From: Nitrospinota bacterium
Lineage (GTDB): Bacteria > Tectomicrobia > Entotheonellia > J063
Assembly: GCA_003696125.1 (NCBI GenBank)
Contig: RFHZ01000125.1
Coordinates: forward strand, 1 to 5,608
Length of the DNA stretch: 5,608 nucleotides
Direction: 5' to 3'
Within the stretch, counting starts at the first letter, position 1, and each line of letters opens with the position of its first letter. The position numbers were made by a program, and so were the translations under genes. Below the pieces are notes generated by a model. The model searched no databases, had not been told where the DNA came from, and saw only the letters and a list, made by a program, of their open reading frames with translations. Of this stretch, positions 3,473 to 5,608 are shown piece after piece.

Positions 3473-4108
3473 CTACTCCTCGTTGAGAAAATCAGGGATG
3501 TCTTGCGTGCGGAACATCTCGAATATCTCTTGCATCTCCGGCTGATAGTGTTGAATCTGGCTGCAGAGGCACCTTTCGTGCACAACCCCGATCACCGGGA
3601 GCAGTTCTTCCCGCCCATAATTGCTCCCATTAACAATCAGCTCTTCCAGAGAAAAGAGTTTGGGAGCGCCTTCAGCATTGAGCCAGAGCGCTTTGCACCG
3701 GGGACATCCTGTGATCGCCGGTGTCCGAAAGACCTGGATATCCGGGATGCGGAGGATCGATTTCCGCCGGCGGTTTATTTTATGCTGTCGAACCAGGGTT
3801 TCCAGATACTGCCACAACTGCACATTGGTCGCGCCGGTTTGAGCAATCGTCTGCCAGGTTTCATTTTCCTCCTCATCCAGGGCTCGTGCGATTTCACGGG
3901 CGATACGACGAGAGGAGAGGTTTTCACGAATACCACGCAGGATACATTGCACGATGGTCTGACGTTCCTCTGCTGTCCAGCCGTAGTGCATGCTATACTC
4001 TATGGCCAGGTCCGCGTAAAACTCCTGGCTGAAATAGGGGGGAGAGGAAGGGAGGAACGCCGCTCGCTCAGGGAACAGGCTCCCTCTGGATCGCCAAGAA
4101 AAGATCAT
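3473..4108 (-). CDS. Small protein with Mu gpF / SPP1 gp7-like (MuF) domain
   Basis: The protein is 211 aa with no signal peptide or membrane segment. Residues 47-110 are helical, with RRIAREIARAL followed by WQTIAQTGATNVQLWQYLE. This resembles the segment of the phage MuF head-morphogenesis domain where an R/T-rich helix (ARTET-type) precedes the cysteine core. Residues 133-183 contain GCPRCKALWLN, a Phe-Ser-Leu stretch, then PVIGVVHERCLCSQI, giving Cys135-x2-Cys138 and His177-x2-Cys180-x-Cys182. This closely follows the CPxCxxLxG...PPxHPxCRC layout of that family and probably binds zinc. In phages the domain belongs to a minor capsid protein near the portal. In bacteria MuF domains also occur in polymorphic toxins, but no toxin domain follows here. 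The ATG at 4108 has AGAAGGAG seven bases upstream (4116-4123). No other phage genes are visible. Family assignment is by motif memory and moderately sure; function here is unknown. Confidence 0.5.
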   Translation of the reverse strand: MIFSWRSRGSLFPERAAFLPSSPPYFSQEFYADLAIEYSMHYGWTAEERQTIVQCILRGIRENLSSRRIAREIARALDEEENETWQTIAQTGATNVQLWQYLETLVRQHKINRRRKSILRIPDIQVFRTPAITGCPRCKALWLNAEGAPKLFSLEELIVNGSNYGREELLPVIGVVHERCLCSQIQHYQPEMQEIFEMFRTQDIPDFLNEE

Positions 4109-4154
4109 CCGATGACTCCTTCTGCCTTACAGGCATGGCTAATCTCTTCTCTCC

Positions 4155-4183
4155 ACTCTAGCAGAAACATTGCTGGCTCGCAA
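4155..4183 (-). promoter_or_regulatory. Probable sigma70-type promoter for the MuF-like gene
   Basis: On the minus strand, TTGCGA (4178-4183) and TAGAGT (4155-4160) are separated by 17 bases, and TGC directly before the -10 adds an extended -10 element. Transcription would start near 4148, giving a leader of about 40 bases with the AGAAGGAG ribosome site near its end. A short TGCC/GGCA stem in that leader is too small to call regulatory. Confidence 0.5.
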
Positions 4184-4260
4184 CTGCGAAATCGGGGGCC
4201 TGGGGAGGAGGAATATCCTCAGACCGGAGAGGATAAAGGGGAGTGTATCTACTCCGGATG

Positions 4261-4269
4261 TGCTATAAT
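4261..4269 (+). promoter_or_regulatory. Extended -10 promoter for the histidine kinase gene
   Basis: TGCTATAAT contains a perfect TATAAT (4264-4269) preceded by the extended -10 TGn. The 17-base-spaced -35 position (4241-4246, GAGTGT) has almost no match, as is usual for extended -10 or activator-dependent promoters. A GGAGT...ACTCC palindrome at 4240-4255 overlaps the -35 position and could bind a regulator. The start site would be near 4276, leaving a leader of about 140 bases before the kinase ATG. Confidence 0.5.
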
Positions 4270-4417
4270 GGTTGTGCTCTGGTGAGGAGAGGCTGCAGGG
4301 CATGGCGGGGCTCTGGGACGTGAGAAGGTGGTATGGTTTTTGCTTCCTGTCAGGGTGACGGTAGAGGACGCAGCGGCTTCTCCTGAAACGGTGTCAACAA
4401 ATCCATAGAGGCCCAGG

Positions 4418-5608
4418 ATGGAGCAAAAGGATACGCCGGTACGGTTTTTTCACCGTATCAGCGGGAAAATTCTGCTGATCTTTACCCTGGTTATCCTGGT
4501 GGTCTTGCTGGTCGGGGGCTTCTCCATTCTCCTCTCTCGTAACACCTATCTGCGCATGCTGGCAGTCCAGGAGGAGAGTAAAAACACCCGCGTCATCGAT
4601 GAACTACGCACCGTCCTTCACGGGTTCCTCTTCTCCCAACTCCTGGAGATTCCCCCAGCCCGGCGCGAGGCTGCCCTGGAGCGTACCCGTCGAGCATTTC
4701 TCACCACCCTGGAGACTTACATGCAACAGGAACGGGTCCAGGAGACCCCGGAGAGCCAACAAGAGGTCGCCTTTCTCCTGCAAGTCCAAACCCATGTGGT
4801 CCAGCATCTTCTCCCCCTGGCCCGCACCGCTCTGCACCAGCTCCAGGAGGGCCACGGGGTGGATACCTCTCTTCTGACCAGGTTGAGAGAGGCGGTGACC
4901 AGGGGTGAAACGCTCCTGGAGGAGGTGGTTGCGGTCCACCACCGCCTGGTGGATCATGCCATTGCGGCAGCGGAGCGAGAACAGCGTCTCATCCTCCGGC
5001 TCTACCTCCTCTTTCTCTGTTTGGGAGTGCTCGTCGTGCTGAGTGTCCACTTCTTCTTTTATCGCGTCATCGTGTCTCCGATCCAGCAGCTCAACAGCGC
5101 CATCCTCCGCATTGCCGAAGGGGGGTTTAAGGAGCGGGTGGCTATCAGGGGAAAGAACGAATTTGCGCAGCTCGCTTCTTCCTTTAACACGATGGCTACC
5201 AGGCTGGAAGCTCACGAGCAGATGATCCGTTCCTTTCAGCAGGGGCTCGAGACCAAGGTGCGGGAACGGACAAGGGCTCTAGAAGCGGCGAATCAGGAGT
5301 TGCGTCGCATGCAGATGCGTCTGCTGGAGACCGAACGGTTGGCCACCATCGGAGAAATCGCAGCCAATGTGGCACATGAAATCCGCACCCCGCTCAACTC
5401 TCTTGCCATCAATTTCCAGATGATCCGGCGGACCTTAAAGAAAGAGATCTCTGCCCTGGCACCCCGGCTGGAGGAAAATCTCCGCCTCCTGGGGTATGAG
5501 ATCGAGCGGATTAACACGGTGATAACCTCTTTTATCAAGCTGGCCAAGGCTCCGAAGAGTTCTCGTCACCCGATCGCTCTGGGCAAGGTGATCACCGATA
5601 TGGTGCAG
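4418..5608 (+). CDS. Sensor histidine kinase, N-terminal 397 residues (runs off the window)
   Basis: This is a membrane sensor kinase of a two-component system. Residues 17-39 form the first membrane helix (ILLIFTLVILVVLLVGG). Residues 41-190 are a mostly helical periplasmic sensor domain that I do not recognise, and residues 191-214 form the second membrane helix (LILRLYLLFLCLGVLVVLSV). A HAMP linker follows at about 215-265 (VIVSPIQQLNSAILRIAEGG to ELASSF-like FAQLASSFNTMATRL), then a coiled coil at 266-305 (LETKVRERTRALEAANQELR). The HisKA dimerisation domain starts near 306, with the H-box NVAHEIRTPLNSLAIN and phosphoacceptor His320. The ATP-binding domain lies beyond the window. The ERTRALEAANQELR helix and H-box resemble NtrB/ZraS-type kinases that often pair with an NtrC-type regulator; that pairing is inferred. 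ATG at 4418 has GAGG six bases upstream. The frame stays open for all 397 codons to the edge, and codon use (CTC/CTG, GAG) is consistent with a real gene. The ligand is unknown. Confidence 0.5.
   Translation, partial: MEQKDTPVRFFHRISGKILLIFTLVILVVLLVGGFSILLSRNTYLRMLAVQEESKNTRVIDELRTVLHGFLFSQLLEIPPARREAALERTRRAFLTTLETYMQQERVQETPESQQEVAFLLQVQTHVVQHLLPLARTALHQLQEGHGVDTSLLTRLREAVTRGETLLEEVVAVHHRLVDHAIAAAEREQRLILRLYLLFLCLGVLVVLSVHFFFYRVIVSPIQQLNSAILRIAEGGFKERVAIRGKNEFAQLASSFNTMATRLEAHEQMIRSFQQGLETKVRERTRALEAANQELRRMQMRLLETERLATIGEIAANVAHEIRTPLNSLAINFQMIRRTLKKEISALAPRLEENLRLLGYEIERINTVITSFIKLAKAPKSSRHPIALGKVITDMVQ

Follow-up and report, generated by a model that had tools for sequence, protein, structure and literature searches.

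A lone, N-terminally shortened MuF core on a bacterial contig and its poorly annotated phage branch

The window, i.e., the whole stretch of DNA that was analysed (5,608 nucleotides), carries an intact gene for a protein of 211 amino acids on its minus strand, and the evidence supports an assignment of this protein to the MuF superfamily, in a branch that is almost unannotated. Its homologues are phage genes lying in a phage context, it is truncated compared with them, and it stands alone on its contig. An N-terminally truncated, orphaned MuF core, left over or captured in a bacterial chromosome and no longer part of a virion, is on balance the probable explanation. This is no new kind of system but a stray or captured phage gene whose branch, within a known family, is poorly annotated. 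The features of the locus are as follows.

3473..4108, minus strand: MuF-like protein, 211 amino acids; intact open reading frame with phage homologues, 83 bits against the phage-family profile
4117..4122, minus strand: Shine-Dalgarno sequence AAGGAG, 8 nt before the ATG; good, read from the sequence
4155..4183, minus strand: possible sigma-70-like promoter, TTGCGA-17-TAGAGT; weak, 8/12 by eye
3536..3976, minus strand: MuF core, residues 45-191, aligned to the phage family by HMM; pLDDT mostly about 90
3695..3706, minus strand: C135xxC138 knuckle; both cysteines retained; conservation of at least 90% in the phage family
3611..3664, minus strand: subfamily insert PKLFSLEELIVNGSNYGR, residues 149-166; P, F, L, E, L, N, G, N and G all retained, with conservation of at least 90% among the phages
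3563..3580, minus strand: H177-E-R-C180-L-C182, family consensus HPxCxC; H, C and C kept, E at the position of P178
2462..3460, plus strand: SH3b-domain membrane protein, not part of the feature (PF08239, 2.5e-15); convergent, 12 bp from the MuF stop
4418..5608, plus strand: HAMP/HisKA histidine kinase, not part of the feature (PF00672, PF00512); divergent, cut by the contig end

Reading frame and retained residues

The G+C content of the MuF gene at codon positions 1, 2 and 3 is 58, 41 and 63%, the same pattern as in the other genes of the window. An antisense open reading frame (3503-4285, plus strand) was ruled out as a real gene, as homology and codon-position G+C favoured the minus strand. 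The first-pass annotation had credited the gene with a good promoter and ribosome site, of which the ribosome site stood, whereas the promoter is just fair and was missed by a promoter scanner that reported no minus-strand site upstream of the MuF gene. In the candidate (4183-4155), TGC precedes the -10 element, and the score lies under the scanner threshold.

The CxxC...HxxCxC core and the preceding IAxTGxTN helix that had been described for this 211-codon frame are indeed present (C135-x2-C138, H177-x2-C180-x-C182, and IAQTGATN at residues 87-94). An alignment of the phage family revealed a common core of CxxC, PxxFxLxEL..NGxNxG, and HPxCxC, and the FxLxEL/NGxNxG loop is retained in the window protein. 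Among the columns conserved to at least 90% in the phages, the window protein keeps 15 of 19, including every cysteine and histidine, and the same count gives at least 16 of about 19 for phage members. In the next conservation class it keeps 4 of 16, and much of the DWxRDWxRIAxTE helix falls there. CxxC...HxxCxC follows the (R)IAxTE helix as in the family, with the E of TE replaced by G. Against a profile of the phage relatives alone the protein scored 83 bits, compared with about 0 bits for its reversed sequence, and therefore the shared residues are not due to chance. Knuckle and loop probably form a small metal-stabilised fold with presumed metal binding.

About 60-100 N-terminal residues are missing from the window protein, and the DWxRDWxRIAxTE helix motif has diverged. 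In almost every complete phage member, some 100 or more residues precede the position aligned to residue 45, where the window protein has 44 residues of low model confidence and without a convincing match. A search of the other frames of the window found neither the missing N-terminal part nor a portal piece.

At the other end, 29 residues follow C182, the last cysteine, and this tail bears on the proposal that the gene might encode a polymorphic toxin of the MuF type, or the immunity protein for one. That MuF domains can carry toxins at their C-terminus is known (Jamet et al. 2017, PMC5576092), and the window protein has the MuF domain in common with such toxins. Such a role is nevertheless highly improbable, as the short tail has no domain match, the next gene is convergent rather than a downstream partner, and none of the searches recognised a C-terminal toxin domain, a small immunity frame or any other partner frame, so that this suggestion of the first-pass annotation found no backing.

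Membership in the MuF superfamily and phage relatives

Searches of Pfam, NCBIfam, PHROGs, and PADLOC returned nothing convincing for the window protein, and weak matches to Dynein_light and RNase HI were dismissed as noise. A plasmid search yielded no match for the protein, an Rfam search found nothing, and a phrog_2 search was uninformative, with matches in 13 of 14 control genomes. The comparison with the Phage_Mu_F profile PF04233, which had been proposed as a direct check, was negative for the window protein and for its entire metagenome-assembled genome (MAG). The same profile weakly matched 2 of 21 family members (best E 0.039), and a few members matched PHROG minor-head families at about 1e-4.

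Other searches led to phages. A tblastn search with the window protein matched twelve phage records (E 6e-10 to 4e-2) from Herelleviridae, Bacteroides, and Chryseobacterium phages. A viral scan with the single protein as query gave no match, whereas the family alignment as query retrieved 18 and then 35 IMG/VR loci, two sets that partly comprise the same contigs. PF04233 domains were also collected from other genomes and compared, profile against profile, with the phage family from which the window protein had been left out; they matched with 98.0% probability (E 1.9e-13, 106 columns). One genome locus, G200:C196, was found independently by both the family and the PF04233 profiles.

The AlphaFold model of the window protein reached a mean pLDDT of 80 (about 90 in the core) and that of one phage relative a pLDDT of 88. 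When the window model was compared with the BFVD viral models by Foldseek, matches were mostly head-morphogenesis, minor-capsid, and MuF-like proteins (probability up to 1.00), and most named top matches had this predicted fold. The two best BFVD matches carry intein/Hint domain names. Among PDB matches no MuF chain was present, either by fold or by sequence; the fold matches there are helical look-alikes (Nab2 N-terminal domain, Z 7.9), from which no relationship was read. The MuF identity first proposed from motifs is thus supported, because the phage branch links to PF04233 domains and to predicted-fold matches, and is further borne out by the homologues encoded beside portals.

The genes for MuF proteins, which are head proteins, directly follow the portal gene (PMC5576092). 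SPP1 gp7 binds the portal strongly and is present in few copies inside the procapsid; of virions made without it, only about one in four is infectious (PMC6316719). With PF04233, SPP1 gp7, and Mu gpF, the window protein shares CxxC…HxxCxC after an IAxTxxxN helix, the profile match of its phage branch, the predicted fold, and relatives likewise encoded beside the portal. It differs from them in lying below PF04233 detection, in the insert PxxFxLxEL..NGxNxG, in the change from TE to TG in the helix, in its missing N-terminus, and in being alone on a bacterial contig.

The phage branch (LysYB1 M3_0222 and Goe26_00960 from Herelleviridae, Bacteroides DAC16-type, and Chryseobacterium MA9V-3) has the same Cys/His set and insert as the window protein, at 23-32% identity over the core. 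Complete phage members are, in contrast, 270 to over 700 amino acids long, with an N-terminal helical part, and many lie in a head-gene module. Downstream of the relative in Lysinibacillus phage LysYB1 come two open reading frames, the portal, the procapsid protease and, one gene later, the major capsid protein; in Bacillus phage Goe26 the next gene is a portal according to PHROGs. Eight IMG/VR or MAG loci supplied ten neighbouring proteins for a scan, which identified four portals, one terminase, and one major head protein. In a tree of the family, the window protein has the longest branch (3.4 changes per site compared with a median of 0.49), and its place near a Herelleviridae group is unsure because of this length.

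The MuF branch of Herelleviridae and other large phages, mostly missed by Pfam and PHROGs, is now identified, and many genes beside portals annotated as hypothetical proteins can be named. Such genes of Herelleviridae, Bacteroides, and Chryseobacterium phages are those at L009:7497-8357, L010:5497-6357, L011:7404-8315, and L012:5401-6336; in the phages of Bacillus and Lysinibacillus these MuF genes precede the portal, and most escape both databases. Long C-terminal extensions were seen on the phage members at L014:7641-9449, L018:3925-5571, L021:700-2472, L048:5074-6822, and L051:5074-7320, and the L018 member has a HELGH metallopeptidase-like motif. On a human faecal phage contig (L013:5374-6878), the MuF gene is directly followed by a reading frame of Hint/intein-like appearance.

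Surroundings in the bacterial genome

The contig is the window itself (5.6 kb), beginning at base 1 and ending at base 5608 within the kinase gene. Besides the MuF gene it encodes an ArgE/DapE-type M20 deacylase, an orphan 143-aa protein, the SH3b membrane protein, and the histidine kinase; Pfam matches confirmed the last two, which the first-pass annotation had named as neighbours. The orphan, a basic protein (1613-2044), overlaps the start of the M20 deacylase by 4 bp and matched no family, phage or class relative.

The statement that the gene lies away from phage genes holds within the 5.6-kb contig. No portal was found in the window, and the MAG (4.2 Mb, 990 contigs, 95% complete, 8% contaminated), in which few phage families were searched, yielded neither the portal family nor Terminase_6N nor another MuF of this branch. 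A position beside a portal, as expected of a functional minor head protein, was seen at many loci of the phage relatives and not for the window gene. Phage genes could lie beyond the contig ends, which is a point against calling the gene an orphan. The locus might accordingly belong to an ordinary prophage or phage-derived island with its remaining genes there or on other contigs, given that the relatives are overwhelmingly phage genes and the contig measures just 5.6 kb. This is unlikely: the gene is flanked on either side by genes of bacterial type (M20 deacylase, SH3b, kinase), the MAG gave no portal or Terminase_6N match, and the protein is truncated relative to phage members.

The MuF gene is absent from all four relatives in class and phylum (five searchable genomes). 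At the thresholds used, the SH3b, kinase, and 143-aa genes were not found in the four class relatives either, so no conserved context is demonstrable beside the SH3b gene or the kinase. Across 386 genomes, the family profile matched G000 and two others, and a pattern scan of genome contigs gave two matches, L032 and L033. The neighbours of the MuF gene in L032 match PHROG families of unknown function.

Left-over, capture or domestication

The ancestral gene would have encoded a minor head protein, made by a tailed phage beside its portal. By homology to SPP1 gp7, MuF members of phages presumably attach to the portal within the procapsid and contribute to the start of infection. The gene would since have lost the portal, terminase, and capsid partners that it had in the phage and would now stand by itself in a bacterial chromosome, with an intact, translatable frame and a Cys/His knuckle that is predicted to fold still. 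A function in the virion is unlikely because the N-terminal part is gone along with most of the motif-bearing helix, and no portal was recognised in the genome; the protein probably no longer works there. Portal docking would have been lost, and the gene might be the left-over of a lost prophage or a laterally captured fragment.

The open frame of 211 codons, the good ribosome site, the host-like composition, and the Cys/His residues kept despite a long branch suggest continuing or recent selection. This speaks against a mere left-over, as a long-dead remnant would not show such retention, although some of the branch length may date from the gene's time in a phage.

The intact frame and the retained knuckle therefore make domestication a live rival, in which the bacterium took over the MuF core for a role in the cell or against phages, under selection, for example as a decoy that binds the portal or packaged DNA of an incoming phage and spoils head assembly. 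We regard recruitment as possible, although not probable. It would agree with the good Shine-Dalgarno sequence, the 12-bp convergent fit with the neighbouring gene, the host-like codon-position G+C, and the retention of all Cys/His residues and the loop over a long branch. However, the gene is absent from four class relatives, a conserved context is not demonstrable, and the window protein has no defence-family match. A more specific form, in which a MuF core without its portal-docking part serves as a host protein, perhaps a decoy entering or jamming the portal complex of invading phages, is doubtful. With a solitary, truncated MuF core in a bacterial chromosome, the locus offers a test case for the domestication of a head protein.

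Another copy that is short at its N-terminus and away from head genes is also consistent with domestication. In L033 (7938-14197; Bacteroidetes MAG PLYJ01000267.1), a MuF-like frame of 223 amino acids has no flanking head genes. Its neighbours are kinase and response-regulator genes upstream, an HTH/IrrE-like protein, a DUF3987/BT4734 protein and, about 0.5 kb away, a protein of 314 amino acids that a pAgo model recognises at 228.7 bits. The HxxCxC motif of this copy is, however, broken by loss of H and one C, and the copy may itself be decaying.
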